Below, piece by piece: positions 10,750 to 58,683 of a stretch of DNA of 64,000 bases. A model generated the notes under the pieces. That model had not been told where the DNA came from, made no database searches, and saw only the letters and a list, made by a program, of their open reading frames with translations. The DNA comes from Mycobacterium kiyosense. GTDB lineage: Bacteria; Actinomycetota; Actinomycetes; Mycobacteriales; Mycobacteriaceae. Position numbers and translations under genes: made by a program. Each line of letters opens with the position of its first letter. Positions within the stretch are counted from its first letter, which is position 1. The stretch spans positions 3,534,001 to 3,598,000 of the forward strand of contig AP025179.1 in NCBI GenBank assembly GCA_021654635.1, given 5' to 3'.

Positions 10750-11719
10750 TTAAGTCGTCGCGATCTCAAGTATTTGCTGGGCGGCTAGGGCCGGGGTCAG
10801 CTCGCCCTCACGCACCTGACGCTCGACGTCCCGGCGGGCCTTGCGGACCTGCGGGTTGGACATCAACCGGTCCAGCACCGCGTCACGCACCATCTGCCAG
10901 GTCCAGTCGACCTGCTGATCGTGGCGGCGCGCCTCGAACTGCCCGGCCTCGGTGAGCACCTTGCGGTGCTTCTCGATCGTCTCCCACAGTTCGGTCAAGC
11001 CGGTCCCCTCGACCGCGCTCATCGTCAAAACCGGTGGCCGCCAAAGTGTTTCGCGTGGATAGATCAGCCGCAACGCCCCGGACAGCTCGCGGGCGGCCAG
11101 CTTGGCGTCCTTGAGGTGCGCCCCGTCGGCCTTATTGACCACCACGATGTCGGCCAGCTCCAGCACGCCCTTCTTGATGCCCTGCAACTGATCCCCGGTG
11201 CGCGCCAGGGTCAGCAGCACGAACGTGTCGACCATGTTGGCCACCGACACCTCGGACTGCCCCACCCCCACCGTTTCGATCAGGATCACGTCGAAGCCCG
11301 CGGCCTCCAACAGCACAACGGTCTCCCGAGTGGCCTTTGCTACACCCCCCAAGGTCCCCGACGTGGGGGACGGCCGGATGTAGGCGTCGGGGTGCGTGGC
11401 CAGCTTCGCCATCCGGGTCTTGTCGCCCAGGATCGAGCCACCGGTACGCGTCGAGGACGGGTCGACCGCCAGCACGGCCAGCTTGTGCCCCTGCTCGATC
11501 ACGTGTATACCCAGGGCTTCGATGGTGGTGGACTTGCCCACCCCGGCACCCCGGTGATGCCCACCCGGTGAGCGCCCCCGCATCGGGCAGCAGCTCCAAC
11601 AGCAGCTGTTGCGCCTGCTCCCGGTGGTCGGCGCGGGTGGACTCGAGCAGGGTGATGGCCCGCGGCAGCGCGGCGCGGTCGCCGCTGCGGATGGCGTCGG
11701 CCAGGTCCTGGACCTTCAT
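10750..11719 (-). CDS. meaB: MeaB/ArgK-type GTPase, chaperone of methylmalonyl-CoA mutase (Rv1496 homologue); two apparent single-base deletions
   Basis: G3E-family P-loop GTPase that protects and reloads MutAB. Three frames must be joined: the N terminus [13 protein letters not shown] (from ATG 11719), a short middle [11 protein letters not shown], and [10 protein letters not shown] onward to the stop at 10750. Adding one base in the C run 11575-11579 and one in 11541-11544 yields [19 protein letters not shown], the family's Walker A. Other motifs are [15 protein letters not shown] and VVNKADG. Two breaks 30 bases apart in the key motif of an otherwise perfect gene suggest sequence error. 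In M. tuberculosis mazEF6 separates meaB and mutB; here a repeat occupies the gap. Confidence 0.85.
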
Positions 11720-11741: not shown

Positions 11742-11800
11742 GACTCTGCGCCGGCGGCGCAGTTGTTCGAGTAAGGCGCGCCCTCAGCGCAGAGTCAACG
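11742..11800 (+). repeat. Family B hairpin repeat, copy 1 (meaB-mutB gap)
   Basis: GACTCTGCG pairs perfectly with CGCAGAGTC and, inside it, GGCGC pairs with GCGCC, forming a two-part stem about 55 bases long. The final arm continues AACG as in the iterons of the other copies at 57498 and 58533. The loop sequence differs between copies while the stems are kept, which points to selection on structure. Confidence 0.7.
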
Positions 11801-11830: not shown

Positions 11831-14083
<2,253 letters not shown>

Positions 14084-22774: not shown

Positions 22775-23683
22775 ATGTGGTGCCCGAGTGTCTCGCTGTC
22801 GATGTGGGCCAATGCCTGGCTCGCCGGAAAGGCCGCGCCCGACGACGTCCTCGACGCGTTATCCCTTTGGGCGCCAAGGCAATCCGTTGCCGCCTACGAT
22901 GCGGTTGCCGCGGGTCACACCGGATTACCGTGGCCGGACGTGAGCGACGCCGGGACGGTGTGTCTGCTGCAGACGCTGCGTGGGGCGGTCGGGCGCTCGC
23001 CGGCGCCGTCGTCGTCGTCGCTGCGCGGCACCATCAACGTGGTGCTACCGGTGCCCGGTGACGTGCGCGGCCTTTTTGCCGGGACACAGTTTGCCAGCGA
23101 CGCACTGACCGCCGGCGAGGCGGTGATCATCAGCCATCCGGGCGACCCGAACACCGCGATCGGCCTGGTCCCTGACTTCACCTACAGCGACATCGACGAC
23201 GACACCGACAGCGGCGAACCCGAACTGCTTGCGCTGACCTGGATGGTGTACTCGCTGCCCGGGCCGCCGGCGTACGACTGCCACGACCTCGGCGGCGCCG
23301 AATACGCGCTGCGGTCGGCGGTCCGGTCGGCCGCCGACGCGTTGAGCGCGATGGGTCTGGGATCTGCCAGCGGCGTGGAGAATCCACGCGGACTCGTCGA
23401 GCAGATGCTGGAATCGGCACGGCAACACCGGGTTCCGGATCACGCGCCCACCCGGGCCCTGCGGGTGCTGGAGAATGCCGCGCACGTCGATGCGATCATC
23501 GCGGTCAGCGCCGGATCGAGCCGGCCGTCGGACCGGGTGACCGCCGCACCGGAATTGGCTGGGATGCAATCGTCTTCGGCGGGACGGATCGCGACCGACG
23601 CGCTGCGGCCGCTGACCGCAGTGGTGCGCTCGGCGCGCATGGCCGCAGTCGACGCGATCCTGGCGTCCGCCTGGACCGACTAG
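22775..23683 (+). CDS. Conserved mycobacterial protein (Rv1486c homologue)
   Basis: 302 residues, no recognised catalytic motif. The N terminus [18 protein letters not shown] and the segments [18 protein letters not shown] and [14 protein letters not shown] are shared with the M. tuberculosis protein, which is known only as a conserved hypothetical. It is divergent from the NfeD/SPFH pair and convergent with hemH. Its last 50 bases, including the stop, are contained in a 61-bp tandem duplication. Confidence 0.88.
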
Positions 23684-23750
23684 CCCGATCTCGGCGCGCA
23701 TGGCCGCAGTCGACGCGATCCTGGCGTCCGCCTGGACCGACTAGCCCGAT
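23629..23750. repeat. Perfect 61-bp tandem duplication at the Rv1486c/hemH junction
   Basis: Bases 23629-23689 and 23690-23750 are identical. The unit holds the end of Rv1486c and the palindromic CTAG that gives both convergent genes their TAG stop. Without the duplication the two genes would overlap by four bases; with it the stops are 60 bases apart and neither protein changes. Confidence 0.95.
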
Positions 23751-24745
23751 CTCGACGCGCAGTGCGGCGGACGGCACGGTGCGCCGTTGCCGCTGCCCAG
23801 GCAACCCTGGACCGGATCGGAGCCGGTGACCCGGGAGGGTCGCCTACCCTCGCGCAGTTCGTCGATCAAATCGATTGCCAGCGCAGCGAATCGGGGGTCG
23901 GCGTTGGGGGTCGCGGCTCTGGCGAACTGCACGCCCAGCGCCTCGGCCTGTAGCCGCAGCTCATGGTCGAGGTCCCACACCACCTCGATGTGGTCGGCGA
24001 CAAAGCCGATGGGACAGACGATTACGGACTCGACACCTTGCTGGTGCAGCGCTGTCAAGTGGTCACCGACGTCGGGTTCGAGCCACGGGACCTGCGGCGG
24101 TCCCGAGCGCGACTGCCACACCAGGTCGTAGTCCTCGTAACCCGCTCGGGTCGCGACAAGCCTTGCGGCATAAGCAACTTGACGGCTGTACAAGTTGGGT
24201 CCGCAGCATTGGTCGGCGGCAATCGGAATGGAGTGGGCGGTGAAGACCAGGCGCCCGCGGGGCAGTTTTTCTGCAGCATTCGTCACGGCTTCGGTGAACA
24301 TCTCGACGAACAGCGGATGGTCGAAGTAAGTACGCAGCTTGACCAGTACTGGCGCTTGGTCACCGGCCGCCCCGCGCGCCCTGGCGATATCCTCGACGTA
24401 CTGCGTGCAACTGGAATAGCCGCTCCAGGCTGAGGTGGTGAATACCGCGGCGCGACGAATACCGTTGTCGCGCATCTCTTTTACCGTATCTTCGACATAG
24501 GGCGCCCAGTTGCGGTTCCCGAAGTACACGGGTAGGTCCTGGACGGCCCGCAGCTGCTCGATCAGCGCGCGGTTGATGCCGTTGATCGGTGAGACACCAC
24601 CGAAATGCAGATAGTGCTCGGCGACGTCGTCGAGCCGCTCGGGCGGCACGTTGCGGCCCCGGGTGACGTTCTCCAGGAACGGTCGAACCTGCTCCGGGCC
24701 CTCCGGCCCGCCGAACGAGAGCAGCAGGACAGCGTCGAAATCCAT
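23741..24745 (-). CDS. hemH: Ferrochelatase (hemZ/hemH, Rv1485; coproporphyrin ferrochelatase type)
   Basis: 334 residues. Inserts iron into the porphyrin in heme synthesis; actinobacterial members act on coproporphyrin III (CpfC). Seen: the N-terminal [19 protein letters not shown], the family motif [15 protein letters not shown], the conserved His in FTAHSIP, and the metal-side segment [19 protein letters not shown]. The [2Fe-2S] cysteines of actinobacterial enzymes are present (Cys in YSSC and three in [15 protein letters not shown]). It follows inhA by 6 bases, the conserved fabG1-inhA-hemZ order. Confidence 0.95.
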
Positions 24746-32072: not shown

Positions 32073-32642
32073 CTACGCGTCTTTGCTGGACGCCGTCTCA
32101 GCGTTAGCTTGCAAGGTTGCTGGCTGCCTGTTGCGCAGCTGCAGGAAGCGGGTACCGGCGGCGGCCGCAAACACCCCGATCAGCAAAGCAATGGTGAGCG
32201 CGGTCCAGGGGAACTCAGGGGTCTCGAGTTCGTGCAGAAAATTCTGTGCGGACTGCACCGGATTACCCGTCTTGGAATGGTCCTCGCCGGCCTCAAGGGT
32301 CACGCGCGGGAAACGCGCGCTGTAGCTGCCCACGTAGCTGGGACTGAGCACCAGCACGGTGGAGTCCGGGTAGTCGGCGCCGACGACGGTCGCGATGTCG
32401 CGCAGCGCGGTGTCGTGCGGCGGGTTGTGGTCGAGCAGGACGATCTTGAGCGTGATGCCGTCGCCGCGGGCGTGGTTGACCACGTCGAGCAGGCCCGGCT
32501 CCGGGCCCGGCGGGGCGGCCACGCCGTCGACCGCGACCTGAGCCTTGACTGCGGCGATGTCGACGTCGACCGGGATGTACTCGGGCAGGAACGGGATCGT
32601 CTGCGGCAACGGCAGTTCGCCGAAAACTTCGCGTCCGGTCAT
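32073..32642 (-). CDS. Membrane protein with an outer alpha/beta domain (Rv1476 homologue)
   Basis: 189 residues: an N-terminal soluble domain (PEYIPVDVDIAAVKAQVAVD, IVLLDHNPPHDTALRDIATV) and a C-terminal helix (WTALTIALLIGVFAAAAGTRF) with a short cytoplasmic tail. Conserved in mycobacteria beside ripA; function unknown. ATG 32642. It heads a possible Rv1476-ripA-ripB unit, although the MtrA-type box lies after it. Upstream is a 975-bp repeat-rich gap. Confidence 0.88.
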   Translation of the reverse strand: MTGREVFGELPLPQTIPFLPEYIPVDVDIAAVKAQVAVDGVAAPPGPEPGLLDVVNHARGDGITLKIVLLDHNPPHDTALRDIATVVGADYPDSTVLVLSPSYVGSYSARFPRVTLEAGEDHSKTGNPVQSAQNFLHELETPEFPWTALTIALLIGVFAAAAGTRFLQLRNRQPATLQANAETASSKDA

Positions 32643-33617
32643 GGGCTCGCTCCTCCCGTGGTGCTAGGAGCACCGTACCCGGGCTGTGTTGGTCGCGGCC
32701 CGCGGTGGTTGGCGTCCGCCCGGGGGTGAAGTTTGTTCGCGTCGGGATCCAATGCCGCCGCGGCTGGGGCGCTCGGCATGGTTGGGGCGTCAAGCGTGAA
32801 GCTGGGGCGTCGAGTGTGAAGCTGTGGCGTCGAGCGTGAAGCTGTGGCGTCGAGCGTGAAGCCGTGGCGGGAATTTCGCGGAATCTCCGCCCTGGCTTCA
32901 CTTCCAACGCCCGCCGCGGCTGGGGCGCTCGGCATGGTTGGAGCGTCAAGCACCGCCGGCCGCCGCGTGCGAAGGAACGGCCGTCGAGTGTGAAGCTGGG
33001 GCGTCGAGCGTGAAGTTATGGCGTCGAGTGTGAAGCTGGGGCGTCGAGCGTGAAGTTATGGCGTCGAGTGTGAAGCTGTGGCGTCGAGTGTGAAGCTGTG
33101 GCGGGAATTTCGCGGAATCTCCGCCCTGGCTTCACTTCCAACGCCCAGACTTCACTTCCAACGCCCAGACTTCACACCCAACGCCCGCCGCGGCTGGGGC
33201 GCTCGGCACGGTTGGAGCGTCAAGCACCGCCGGCCGCCGCGTGCGAAGGAACGGCCGTCGAGTGTGAAGCTGGGGCGTCGAGCGTGAAGTTATGGCGTCG
33301 AGTGTGAAGCTGAGGCGTCGAGCGTAAAGCCGTGGCGTCGAGTGTGAAGCTGTGGCGTCGAGGGTGGAGCTGTGGCGGGAATTTCGCGGAATCTCCGCCC
33401 TGGCTTCACTTCCAACGCCCAGACTTCACACCCAACGCCCAACCTCAAAGCAAGCGTTTCGCCAACCTCACGAGATAGGGGTTTCGCCGCGCCCGCGACC
33501 GGACAAGACTGGCAAGCGAAGGGTGCCGCACATTGCAGGACAAGCGTACTGTTAAACTGGCATCGCACCGTCGACACGGCCCGTCGGCGGCGAAGAACTC
33601 AATCCACGGGAGTTGAT
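32643..33617. repeat. Repeat-rich non-coding gap (family A iterons and hairpins) between Rv1476 and acn
   Basis: No gene is visible. From about 32785 to 33448 there are three cassettes. Each has tandem 20-base units (consensus GCGTCGAGTGTGAAGCTGTG), then a hairpin whose arms are GTGAAGC(C/T)GTGGCGGGA and TCCGCCCTGGCTTCAC around ATTTCGCGGAAT, then units resembling the reverse complement (CTTCACTTCCAACGCCCAGA). The hairpins are at 32856-32901, 33090-33135 and 33364-33409 (the last with a weaker left arm). A further direct repeat of about 85 bases links the cassettes (32911-33000 and 33186-33270). The promoters of acn and Rv1476 must lie at the two edges. Confidence 0.85.
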
Positions 33618-36437
<2,820 letters not shown>

Positions 36438-42997: not shown

Positions 42998-43960
42998 ATG
43001 TCATACGTCGCCGTCAACATCGATCTGCTTTCCGGAGCCGCCGGCAACCTGGTCAACATCGGATCGGCCATCAACCAAGCCAACTCCGCGGCGGCGGCGC
43101 AGACCACCGGCGTGCTGGCGGCCGGCGCCGACGAGGTGTCGCGGGCCGTTGCAGCGGTGTTCGGCTCGCACGCCCAGGGCTATCAGGCGCTCAGCGCACA
43201 GGCGACCGCGTTTCACGACCAGTTCGTGGCGACCTTGGCCGGCGGCGCGAACGCATACGCCGCCGCTGAGGCCGCCGCGGCCAATCCATTGGAAGGGATC
43301 CTGGACCTGATCAACGCGCCCAGCCGGGCGCTGTTCAACCGCCCGTTGATCGGCGACGGCCGCGCCGGTGCGCCCGGCTTGCCCGGAGAGGACGGCGGAA
43401 TCCTGTTCGGCAACGGCGGTCCCGGCGGCGCAGGCGCAGCAGCGGGTCAGGTGGGCGGCCGCGGCGGGGCCGGCGGATTTCTGTTCGGTAATGGTGGTCC
43501 CGGGGGTGCGGGAGGCGGCGGCCTCGGCGGCGGCGGCGGAGCGGGCGGCTCGGCAGTGCTGATCGGCAACGGCGGCAACGGCGGCATCAGTCCAACCGGT
43601 ATGTCGTCTGGCGGTGCCGGCGGCAACGGCGGGCTCCTATTGGGCAACGGCGGCAGCGGCGGAACAGGCTTCTTCGGCGGCGGCGACGGCGGTCGAGCAT
43701 TCCTACTTGGCAATGGCGGCGCGGGCGGGTCCACCTTCTCCGGCGATAGGGCCGGCAACGGTGGCATCGGCGGGTTCCTGTTCGGCGACGGAGGCAGCGG
43801 CGGTAACGGCGGCTCCAACGGCGACGGCGGCAACGGCGGTGACGCGGTGTTGTTCGGTAACGGCGGCCCCGGCGGTAACGGCGGTATAGGCGGCACCGAC
43901 GGGCTCGGCGGCAGGGGCGGATTGCTGTTCGGCCAACGGGGCGCCAACGGCGCTGTCTGA
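42998..43960 (+). CDS. PE_PGRS family protein (position of PE_PGRS29, Rv1468c)
   Basis: 320 residues: a PE domain of about 100 residues ([20 protein letters not shown]) with the alternating Ala/Gly helices, the linker [18 protein letters not shown], and about 190 residues of Gly-Gly-X repeats ([17 protein letters not shown]). Exported to the outer surface by a type VII (ESX-5) route in relatives. ATG 42998 has GGAGG 6 bases upstream. The repeat part is GC-rich and prone to length change. Confidence 0.93.
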
Positions 43961-56720: not shown

Positions 56721-57490
56721 GCGACCTGTTCCCGCCCGGCACTTTCGCTCCGGACCCGCGCCCCAGCGCGGTGCCGACGATGCTGGCCGCCCAGTTCAAC
56801 CTCGAAGCAAAGCTGCTGCTGCGCAACGGCGAGCAGCTGCTGCTGACCATGTTCATCCCGATCACGCTGCTGGTCGGGCTCAGCCTGCTACCGTTCGGGT
56901 CGTTCCGTGAGCCCCGCGCCGCGGTGTTCACTCCCGCGATCATGGCGTTGGCCGTCATCTCCACCGCGTTCACTGGGCAGGCCATCGCGGTCGCTTTCGA
57001 CCGCCGCTACGGCGCATTGAAGCGGCTTGGAGCCACCCCGCTACCGGTCTGGGGCATCATCGCCGGCAAGTCGCTGGCCGTGATCTTCACCGTCTTTCTG
57101 CAGTCAATCATCCTGGGCGGCATAGGTTTTGCGTTGGGATGGCGGCCGGGTTTGGCGGCCCTGGCCTTGGGTGCGCTGGTGATCGCGCTGGGTACCGCGG
57201 GGTTCGCCGCGCTGGGCCTGCTGCTCGGCGGCACCTTGAAAGCCGAGGTGGTGCTGGCCCTGGCCAACCTGTTGTGGTTCGTCTTCGCCGGGTTGGGCGC
57301 ACTGACGCTGGAGAGCGGCATGATTCCGACGGCGGTCAAGTGGGCGGCCCGGTTGACGCCGTCCGGGGCGCTCACCGAGGCGCTGACCCAAGCTATGGCG
57401 CTGCGGGTGGATTGGTTCGGGATCGCTGTTCTTGCGGGCTGGGGGGCGCTGGCGGCCCTGGCGGCGCGACGCTGGTTCCGCTTCACCTGA
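56717..57490 (+). CDS. ABC-2 type permease (Rv1457c homologue)
   Basis: 257 residues with six helices, the ABC-2 permease pattern (FDRRYGALKRLGATPLPVWG at the cytoplasmic coupling region). ATG 56717 overlaps the ATPase stop by four bases. Partner of the preceding ATPase. A family B hairpin-iteron repeat begins 8 bases after its stop. Confidence 0.93.
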   Translation: MSDLFPPGTFAPDPRPSAVPTMLAAQFNLEAKLLLRNGEQLLLTMFIPITLLVGLSLLPFGSFREPRAAVFTPAIMALAVISTAFTGQAIAVAFDRRYGALKRLGATPLPVWGIIAGKSLAVIFTVFLQSIILGGIGFALGWRPGLAALALGALVIALGTAGFAALGLLLGGTLKAEVVLALANLLWFVFAGLGALTLESGMIPTAVKWAARLTPSGALTEALTQAMALRVDWFGIAVLAGWGALAALAARRWFRFT

Positions 57491-57497
57491 CTTGCGC

Positions 57498-57634
57498 GAT
57501 TCACTCTGCGGCCAGGGCGCGGAAGTGCGAGTGGCATGCGCCGTGAACGCAGGGTCAACGGTCGTCAGCGCAGAGTCAACGGGTCGTCAGCGCAGAGTCA
57601 ACGCGTCGTCCGCGCAGAGTCAACGGGGCGTCAG
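57498..57634 (+). repeat. Family B hairpin plus four iterons, copy 2
   Basis: CACTCTGCG ... GGGCGC ... GCGCC ... CGCAGGGTC forms the two-part stem. Then CGCAGAGTCAACG-type iterons begin at 57548, 57569, 57591 and 57613 (period 21-22). The last iteron contains the stop codon of the nuclease-like gene on the other strand. No terminator U tract is seen. Confidence 0.8.
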
Positions 57635-58483
57635 CGAGTCCCAGGCGCGCTGAACCCGTCGAACGATGTCGGCCGGGTGCTGGCGCGCCACCACCCTGAC
57701 CACGGTCCAGCCCACTCGGTCGAGATATTCCTGGCGCTCGACATCCCACGCGTACTGGGCGGGGTCGGTCCAATGCTGGTCGCCGTCGTATTCAGCGGCC
57801 AACATGATGTCCTCCCAACCCATGTCGAGGAAATAGCGGGGAAAGCCGTCGGGGCCCGGTACGGGTATCTGAGTCCGCGGCCGCGGGAAACCCGCCTCGA
57901 TCAACAACAGCCGCAGCCAGGTCTCCTTCGGCGACTGGGCGCCACCGTCAACCAGCGCCAGTACTTCCTGCAATCGACACAGCCCTCGGGCGCGCCGGTG
58001 GTTGCCGGCCAACGCCGCCACGTCACGGACCCTGAAACCGGTGGCAGCGGCAAGCGCATCGAGTTGGGCGACTGCGCGACCGAGCGTGCCGCGTCGGCCG
58101 AGGTCGAATGCGGTGCGCTCCGGTGTTGTGACGGGTAAACCATCCAGCCGTTCGTATTCGCCGTCGACCAGCAGGTCAGCTCTGGTCACCACACGTGGTG
58201 GGGTTCTCGCGTTGCGCCAGATCAACTCGATCGGCGCCGCCGGATCGACCCACTTGGCCCCATGCATCGCCGAAGCGGCAAGGCCGGCTATCACCGCTTC
58301 TCGACGTGACCACAGCCAGGCGGCTGCTGTGCGCTGCCGCAGCGACGGCTCAACCCACTTGTCCAGGTAGACGTTCGGCATTATGGCGCGGTAGTACCTG
58401 CGCAGCTGGTAGCGGTTGAGGTCGCCGCGGGCCAACGCCTCACTGCCGATGAACGGTTGCTGCCCAAAGCTCACCGCGCGCAT
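57620..58483 (-). CDS. DUF559-type nuclease-like protein with AbiEi-like N terminus, 287 aa
   Basis: The N-terminal half resembles the AbiEi-type winged-helix region common in mycobacteria (AAAWLWSRREAVIAGLAASA, MHGAKWVD). The C-terminal half has a restriction-endonuclease-like fold with the acidic positions in LDMGWEDIMLAAEYDGDQHW, the PD-(D/E)XK pattern of DUF559/Vsr-like proteins. ATG 58483 is preferred; the frame continues into the upstream repeat, which is unlikely to be coding. The stop overlaps a repeat. It separates homologues (Rv1457c and ctaA) that are neighbours in M. tuberculosis. Function unknown. Confidence 0.75.
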   Translation of the reverse strand: MRAVSFGQQPFIGSEALARGDLNRYQLRRYYRAIMPNVYLDKWVEPSLRQRTAAAWLWSRREAVIAGLAASAMHGAKWVDPAAPIELIWRNARTPPRVVTRADLLVDGEYERLDGLPVTTPERTAFDLGRRGTLGRAVAQLDALAAATGFRVRDVAALAGNHRRARGLCRLQEVLALVDGGAQSPKETWLRLLLIEAGFPRPRTQIPVPGPDGFPRYFLDMGWEDIMLAAEYDGDQHWTDPAQYAWDVERQEYLDRVGWTVVRVVARQHPADIVRRVQRAWDSLTPR

Positions 58484-58532
58484 GTTGGCAGCCGAGAGCG
58501 TCCCCGGCCAGTCAGCCCGCAACCCGTTCGTC

Positions 58533-58632
58533 GACTCTGCGGCTATGGCGCAGAAGTGCGAGTGGCGTGCGCCCTGCACGCAGAGTCAACGTGCAACCGC
58601 GCAGAATCAACGCGCAACCGCGCAGAGTCAAT
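58533..58632 (+). repeat. Family B hairpin plus three iterons, copy 3
   Basis: GACTCTGCG pairs with CGCAGAGTC (9 of 9) and GGCGCA with TGCGCC (6 of 6), followed by iterons at 58579, 58600 and 58621 (period 21). Same direction as copy 2, so the two copies are direct repeats around the nuclease-like gene. It lies about 50 bases upstream of both ctaA and that gene's start. Confidence 0.8.
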
Positions 58633-58683
58633 GGGCAAAACGGTTGTCGCTACGATCGGGCGGTGGCCGTCGGACGAGCGTTG

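Follow-up and report, generated by a model that had tools for sequence, protein, structure and literature searches.

The closest described systems are the REPIN/RAYT pairs of Pseudomonas and enterobacteria, in which a short palindromic repeat is found together with a RAYT enzyme. In the passages of the two papers on which this account draws, inverted arms surround a short and diverse spacer, a distinct repeat type lies beside each enzyme gene, and the enzyme gene itself is vertically inherited (PMC3116915, PMC8049555). The same passages describe ordered tandem clusters that include the flanking DNA, the largest with four REPINs and over 700 bp, and REPIN copies that are more numerous where the genome holds the enzyme (PMC3116915, PMC8049555). 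The array analysed here, which lies between the Rv1476 and acn orthologues of Mycobacterium kiyosense, resembles that account in multiple ways: its palindrome is an inverted doublet, has dispersed extragenic copies, forms tandem clusters and is present in more copies where the enzyme occurs, and each palindrome type flanks its own enzyme gene, though here at some loci only (19 of 50). It differs from what those passages describe in that the arms are amplified as 20-bp units and that the host genus is Mycobacterium. It also differs in its enzyme: RAYT is an IS200-type Y1 transposase, whereas the protein here combines parts that match AbiEi and DUF559/MTES_1575 models and is unrelated to RAYT by the models tried, so that membership in REPIN/RAYT fails. 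The geometry of the palindrome, its dispersal, its flanking of nuclease genes, the division of types by paralog and the phyletic correlation are observed; that the array is a tandemly amplified REPIN-like palindrome tied to a non-RAYT nuclease that cuts and copies it is a reading to which we give an even chance.

Several mycobacterial elements also invite comparison with the palindrome, which is called family A here. The tuberculosis rho-independent terminator, or TRIT, of the RNIE paper is reportedly a structured element located close to the ends of M. tuberculosis genes, and it is likened to family A by description only, not by sequence. The TRIT model is also named in another paper (PMC3526491). 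The Myt-1 stem-loop family of M. tuberculosis, in the excerpt that informs this comparison, is structured, 72 bp long and has 75 members, and was counted among families not described before (PMC2267715). It too is likened to family A by description, which makes their identity a guess, and the same excerpt describes no nuclease link (PMC2267715). A resemblance in sequence is seen to the Mycobacterium sRNA Ms_IGR-8 (Rfam RF02470), which has the same stem and the CGAGUGUGAAGC arm. Its best match in the M. kiyosense genome scores 40.2 bits, below the gathering threshold of 44, which places family A near a described sRNA family; Ms_IGR-8 differs in being listed as an sRNA and not as a dispersed array or the partner of a nuclease.

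The window, meaning the whole 64,000-nt stretch that was analysed (contig AP025179.1, positions 3,534,001 to 3,598,000), belongs to a genome of 6.35 Mb in one contig; the genome of M. tuberculosis is smaller, at 4.4 Mb. Rv names are used for M. kiyosense genes by orthology only, that of Rv1476 being taken from the initial annotation. The array is bounded by the Rv1476 orthologue (32073-32642, minus strand, 189 aa) and the acn (aconitase) orthologue (33618-36437, plus strand; the GTG start at 33618 was picked by eye). Judged by its Rv1476 protein, the genome has its closest named relatives in the M. gordonae/M. asiaticum group, at 79-83% identity among records from which very near ones were possibly excluded. 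A TTGCAGGACAAGCGTACTGTTAAA block at 33533-33556 (plus strand), a putative acn promoter, recurs in each of the 29 relatives compared, never with more than 3 substitutions. Between the genes are three cassettes (32786-33439), each with 20-bp units to the left of a 26-bp dyad centre and their reverse complements to the right of it. TRF places forward-sense 20-bp arrays of the window at 32786-32869, 32982-33103 and 33256-33377 and opposite-sense arrays at 33122-33186 and 33396-33441, with super-periods of 234 and 274 bp. The left units point inwards and those beyond the centre have the opposite sense, the left/right numbers being 4/1, 6/3 and 6/2. Cassette 1 has four left units of GGCGTCRAGYGTGAAGCYGK type (32786-32865, plus strand), a centre of the form GGCGG-N16-CCGCC (32866-32891) and one right, reverse-complement unit (32892-32911, minus strand); cassette 2 has six left units (32980-33099, plus strand), its centre at 33100-33125 and three right units (33126-33185, minus strand); cassette 3 has six left units (33254-33373, plus strand), its centre at 33374-33399 and two right units (33400-33439, minus strand). 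All three centres share the GGCGG-N16-CCGCC form and are of the GGCGGGAATTTCGCGGAATCTCCGCC kind. The DNA joining the cassettes is near-identical (274-nt copies, n=2, 95% alike): the inter-cassette spacer at 32912-32979, which lies within the 274-bp super-repeat, recurs at 33186-33253, and a 41-bp piece of it is found again at 32755-32795. TRF, unit counts and centre positions thus confirm the three cassettes of arm-derived 20-base units around a dyad that the initial annotation had drawn, and the gene strands confirm its divergent neighbours. In that its units abut head to tail with no spacers between them, the array is unlike CRISPR.

The array does not stand alone: family A proves to be a genus-wide intergenic family. 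In the M. kiyosense genome the 20-bp unit pattern with at most 1 mismatch has 157 matches, which are clustered; reversed, the pattern has 32. At 11 loci of this genome, 23 cassettes cut out by their unit positions align gap-free across 106 columns. The centre, at 26 bp, and the step that leads from the last unit on the left to the first on the right, at 50 bp, are therefore constant, and this constancy makes an assembly artefact unlikely. Invariant letters recur at 10-bp steps (G1 G2, G11 G13 and G21-24, mirrored) with fixed spacing, and the family as a whole has constant arm letters and an 18-nt variable centre, an inverted doublet as in REPIN. A genome-wide search with a model built from 14 M. 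kiyosense cassettes found at least 27 cassettes at 15 loci (E<=2e-4, 150 of 4086 candidates scored). The same model has matches (E<=0.01) in 147 of 198 genomes of the genus, with 26 candidates scored per genome. A 14-letter architecture pattern occurs in 78 of 118 genus genomes (560 matches against 28 reversed), and M. kiyosense itself has 28 matches against 0. Outside Mycobacterium matches are few and weak (best E 2.3e-5): a family-level sample gave 16 matching genomes out of 151, nine in the genus and seven outside it, spread over four genera. Cassettes contain a mean of 7.7 units in M. kiyosense (23 cassettes) versus 3.9 elsewhere (81 copies), and extra 20-bp units are carried by this genome and some others.

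The candidate enzyme is a member of a nuclease family whose N-terminus is AbiEi-like and whose C-terminus is REase-like, of the DUF559/MTES_1575 kind. One paralog of 284 aa with this composition is encoded in the window (57620-58474, minus strand). The family is like AbiE (the AbiEi antitoxin) and DUF559/Vsr-like nucleases in its model matches and unlike them in having both parts in one chain. AbiEi models match the N-terminus in six out of six cases, the best E for each protein lying between 4.1e-8 and 1.6e-13, and the Pfam MTES_1575/DUF559 matches of the C-terminus are mostly below or near the curated cut-offs: the window paralog scores 22.2 bits for DUF559, over the cut-off of 20.6, and 34.3 for MTES_1575, under 38.2, and another paralog (L040) falls below both. 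Seven palindrome-flanked proteins match MTES_1575/DUF559 in Pfam, some of them also AbiEi_1, and none of the seven matches a Y1 (RAYT) model. The REase-like residues E184, D217, E228, H234, D244 and R247 are invariant in 19 aligned copies; across 51 aligned rows E228 is kept in 90% and each of the other five in at least 96%, a pattern of conservation that would fit a catalytic role. The family has matches in 118 of 118 genus genomes (1 to 17 each, some of them gene pieces). A single-sequence structure prediction was poor (mean pLDDT 42), and all matches from a profile search against solved structures were weak, the best being to the TALE repeat protein 2ypf (E 5.4e-4, read as chance) and to the endonuclease-like protein 3hrl (E 0.034). 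A phage or plasmid origin was considered and rejected, with no phage match, five weak plasmid matches and no confirmed viral-contig relative. Mobility of the nuclease gene itself is likewise unsupported because the genes within each clade are syntenic orthologues, except for the B pair. A literature search, mainly of open-access papers, found no report linking DUF559 to palindromes.

Palindromes and nuclease genes are found side by side from either starting point. A nuclease gene adjoins 8 of the 85 top-model-match loci of other genomes, and also the M. kiyosense array at 752 kb, where the A1 nuclease has the array only on its 3′ side. Conversely, 9 of 30 nuclease loci from 10 genomes have a copy that matches at least 13 of 14 core letters, in four of them (L189, L191, L193 and L202) on both sides of the gene; the background for such copies is 0 in 60 kb of the window and 2 in 158 kb of other loci (L080-L108). 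At one locus (L192) no family-A copy was found within 1.5 kb of the nuclease. Palindromes also occur upstream of several nuclease starts (ORFs ended at the first stop). In a family-free test, both flanks share a repeat with a score of at least 16 at 19 of 50 nuclease loci versus 0 of 177 control genes, none of which scored above 13 (Fisher p 1.4e-14); the 50 loci are not independent, since A1 loci are orthologous to one another. Scores fall below 16 at 31 of the 50 loci and below 14 at 27. The 50 were drawn from 53 loci (L186, L225 and L231 were omitted, and L225 appears in the tree as an artefact of a wrong reading frame); nuclease loci are the best matches of the search, 23 of them mostly A1 orthologues. 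The 19 loci with both flanks alike fall in 8 clades of the nuclease tree, and in a flank-repeat test 17 of 30 nuclease loci exceed the 99% quantile of 295 random windows. Copy number follows the enzyme as well: the median is 9 family-A copies in 34 genomes with an A1-like nuclease versus 1 in 84 without (p 2.8e-12, a value that ignores kinship among genomes). An A1-like nuclease was defined, across the 118 genomes, as a best E<=1e-98 to the M. kiyosense A1 nuclease, a cut-off chosen after the values had been seen. There are exceptions in both directions: one genome (G047) has an A1-like nuclease and 0 copies, and 12 without one hold 6 or more copies, among them G104, in which an A2-clade nuclease has family-A palindromes on both sides. 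The presence of palindromes on both sides of nuclease genes suggests, short of proof, that the two function together.

The pairing appears to be specific to the paralog. In a tree of 52 nuclease proteins there are clades whose flanks carry different palindromes: a flank repeat is common to 3 of 191 pairs between non-A1 clades and to 19 of 19 pairs within them, and within clade A1 it is common to 267 of 435 pairs. Apart from the B pair, within-clade loci are syntenic, so clade-specific palindromes are largely a matter of common descent (18 of the 19 pairs may be). Family A adjoins the nuclease paralog at 752 kb, and a second family, B, brackets the paralog in the window. One family-B palindrome lies on the 3′ side of that gene (57504-57554), with arm units of 21-22 bp that continue to 57636 and reach just into the 3′ end of the gene as called; another lies on the 5′ side (58535-58585), with arm units to 58638, and palindromes and arm units together span 57473-58640. 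A solo copy at 11744-11794, about 46 kb from the nuclease, sits between the end of the minus-strand ORF 11831-14083 and the start of another minus-strand ORF, 11132-11719. The three window copies share one 51-nt geometry, and the same 51-nt palindrome occurs next to a B-clade nuclease in a second genome, although the two loci have no neighbours in common within 1.45 kb. The loose family-B pattern picked up unrelated matches of different length in the loci as well, and 1 match in reversed sequence. The initial annotation had held that families A and B have the same layout, arm-derived units around a central stem, and unrelated sequences. The sequences do differ, and the shared layout is borne out; it has a reason in that both families flank paralogs of one nuclease family.

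The acn-Rv1476 spacer itself has varied between species. The intergenic length is 158-375 bp in 29 named relatives versus 975 here, and two anchors within it stand 38-42 bp apart in 4 species and 115-255 bp apart in 10, compared with 824 bp here (the anchors failed or fell elsewhere in the other 15 relatives). Matches of the spacer to nuclease flanks were compared with reversed controls, which score 12-15 (12 controls). Above that level the window and L104 match clade A1 (21), three of five M. asiaticum loci match clade H (17-18; the other two do not rise above it), M. angelicum matches clade K (19) and L101 clade D (16). Only the window and L104, L100, L084, L085, L088 and L101 exceed the reversed control at acn-Rv1476. 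The A1 likeness of L086, L089, L090, L093 and L097 is not above it, and at M. kansasii-complex loci and in M. simiae an A1 likeness is visible, at a level not above control. As clade matches differ by species, one spacer has held different palindromes in different lineages, and its history looks insertion-like from these comparisons. An CGCGACACATA-type palindrome is seen at acn-Rv1476 in M. szulgai, M. angelicum and L101 and an GTCACGCTGGCGTGAC-type palindrome in M. asiaticum.

A mechanism like that of REPINs could underlie this distribution. The array would be a local amplification of a palindrome with two inverted arms and, between them, a short variable centre; copies of this palindrome are scattered between genes in Mycobacterium. 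Most likely the N-terminal part of the nuclease would recognise the palindrome arms, the nuclease part would then cut at the palindrome, and repair or replication would copy it into further intergenic regions; local tandem duplication is the most likely origin both of the 20-bp units and of the 234-274-bp cassette repeats. The acn-Rv1476 copy would occupy a spacer that holds different palindromes by species. Binding, cutting and copying, as well as any effects on acn or Rv1476, are inferences. A broader proposal is put forward tentatively, at a little less than an even chance: mycobacteria would possess RAYT-independent systems in which each of several AbiEi-like/DUF559 nuclease paralogs is paired with a dispersed REPIN-like palindrome of its own. 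These pairs would have produced much of what the genus has in structured repeats between genes, such as Ms_IGR-8-like and Myt-like hairpins, and single sites like acn-Rv1476 would be recolonised repeatedly by palindromes from different pairs. If the pairing is functional, it would account for the origin of a large and so far unexplained class of intergenic hairpins in mycobacteria, set a second enzyme type, unrelated to the first, beside that of the REPIN/RAYT pairs, and suggest a testable role for a nuclease family that matches every genus genome examined (118 of 118).

The main rival is that the palindrome is a host-selected RNA hairpin at gene ends, acting as a bidirectional terminator or as a 3′-end barrier against exonucleases in the manner of Ms_IGR-8, Myt or TRIT, with the nuclease link secondary. 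As a replacement for the nuclease reading we consider it rather unlikely, but the two may both be true. A bias towards gene ends speaks for it: among 83 copies in other genomes the neighbouring genes are convergent for 35, tandem for 38 and divergent for 6, with 4 copies inside an ORF call, whereas in a small background sample of gene pairs with a gap of at least 60 (n=48) the numbers are 7, 24 and 17 (4/15/4 in the window and 3/9/13 in flanks). The 11 M. kiyosense loci inspected are all intergenic (7 have convergent neighbours, 1 has tandem ones and 3, among them the array in the window, have divergent ones). The divergent-promoter setting mentioned in the initial annotation is thus untypical of family A, and a copy between the divergent Rv1476 and acn genes, like the copies upstream of nuclease genes, is not what a gene-end hairpin would predict. 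The near match to Ms_IGR-8 also favours such a hairpin. The array is like a canonical intrinsic terminator in having a stable GC-rich hairpin; against this, no T run follows either arm in the window by eye, leaving the stems without a U-tract. The cassettes do fold better than dinucleotide shuffles (z -2.4, -5.0 and -3.7 for whole cassettes 1-3; z -2.97, -2.45 and -2.36 for the 85-86 nt around each centre), but pairing between the arms of 14 M. kiyosense copies is lower than with shuffled partners (66.9% versus 72.0%), for which reason hairpin selection as the sole reading in this genome was rejected. Covariation was redone on copies found by the 14-letter pattern because model-found copies may be biased by that model. 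The resulting 71 copies (26 of 26 from G017, 25 from G099 and 20 of 22 from G057, two near-duplicates being omitted; the 20 copies of G115 were left out), with shuffles kept inside each genome, covary at columns 15/52 (z 5.8) and at 14/53, 25/42, 27/40 and 33/34 (z 2.4-2.8). Swapping whole right arms gives z 2.1 jointly for columns 14-20 (the spacer block) and only -1.4 for the A-tract block. On the other side, columns 16-20/47-51 show no one-by-one covariation in the 71 copies, and columns 28/39 and 29/38 avoid pairing (z -2.7 and -3.5; -5.5 and -4.1 in 81 model-found copies, which are the 85 loci from other genomes minus 2 without a match and 2 scoring below 40), so that A is mostly opposite A and T opposite T. 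Left and right unit numbers are correlated in other genomes (rho 0.46, p 2e-5), which speaks for the gene-end hairpin, and uncorrelated in M. kiyosense (rho -0.33, p 0.12), which speaks against it. The large hairpins of the initial annotation are thus supported by folding and some covarying columns, and not by arm pairing in this genome or by the columns that avoid pairing: the hairpin as such seems only partly conserved, and a structural role is possible, though not one that accounts for the whole pattern.

Two further readings involve no copying enzyme. In one, the arms would be bound by the AbiEi-like protein, or else by gyrase or a nucleoid protein, with a role in autoregulation or in organising the chromosome, which would suit the invariant letters at 10-bp steps with fixed spacing, the AbiEi matches of all six N-termini and the palindromes upstream of several nuclease starts. 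Binding alone does not explain why copy number follows the nuclease or why acn-Rv1476 holds lineage-specific palindromes, and as a full account it is improbable. Even less probable, to the point of being hard to credit, is functionless growth of a neutral tandem repeat or an assembly artefact: unit numbers do vary among cassettes, and both unit and cassette repeats look like slippage, but the constant 26-bp centre and 50-bp step at 11 loci, the genus-wide presence and the flanking of one gene family are all against it. Columns 28-29 and 38-39 hold same-strand A or T runs about 10 bp apart in the centre; that such phased A-tracts serve gyrase wrapping is only an idea.

Other repeats were seen along the way. 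Two M. kiyosense loci, L018 and L022 (3992727 and 5626338), are sub-threshold Ms_IGR-8 matches of a GTAACG/CGTTAC arm type, which resembles the flank of the nuclease at L212. The window also contains a 61-bp tandem duplication (23629-23761, 98% matches) and, at 43788-43902, a GGC-rich tandem repeat of 9/18/27 bp, which we take to be PGRS-like.
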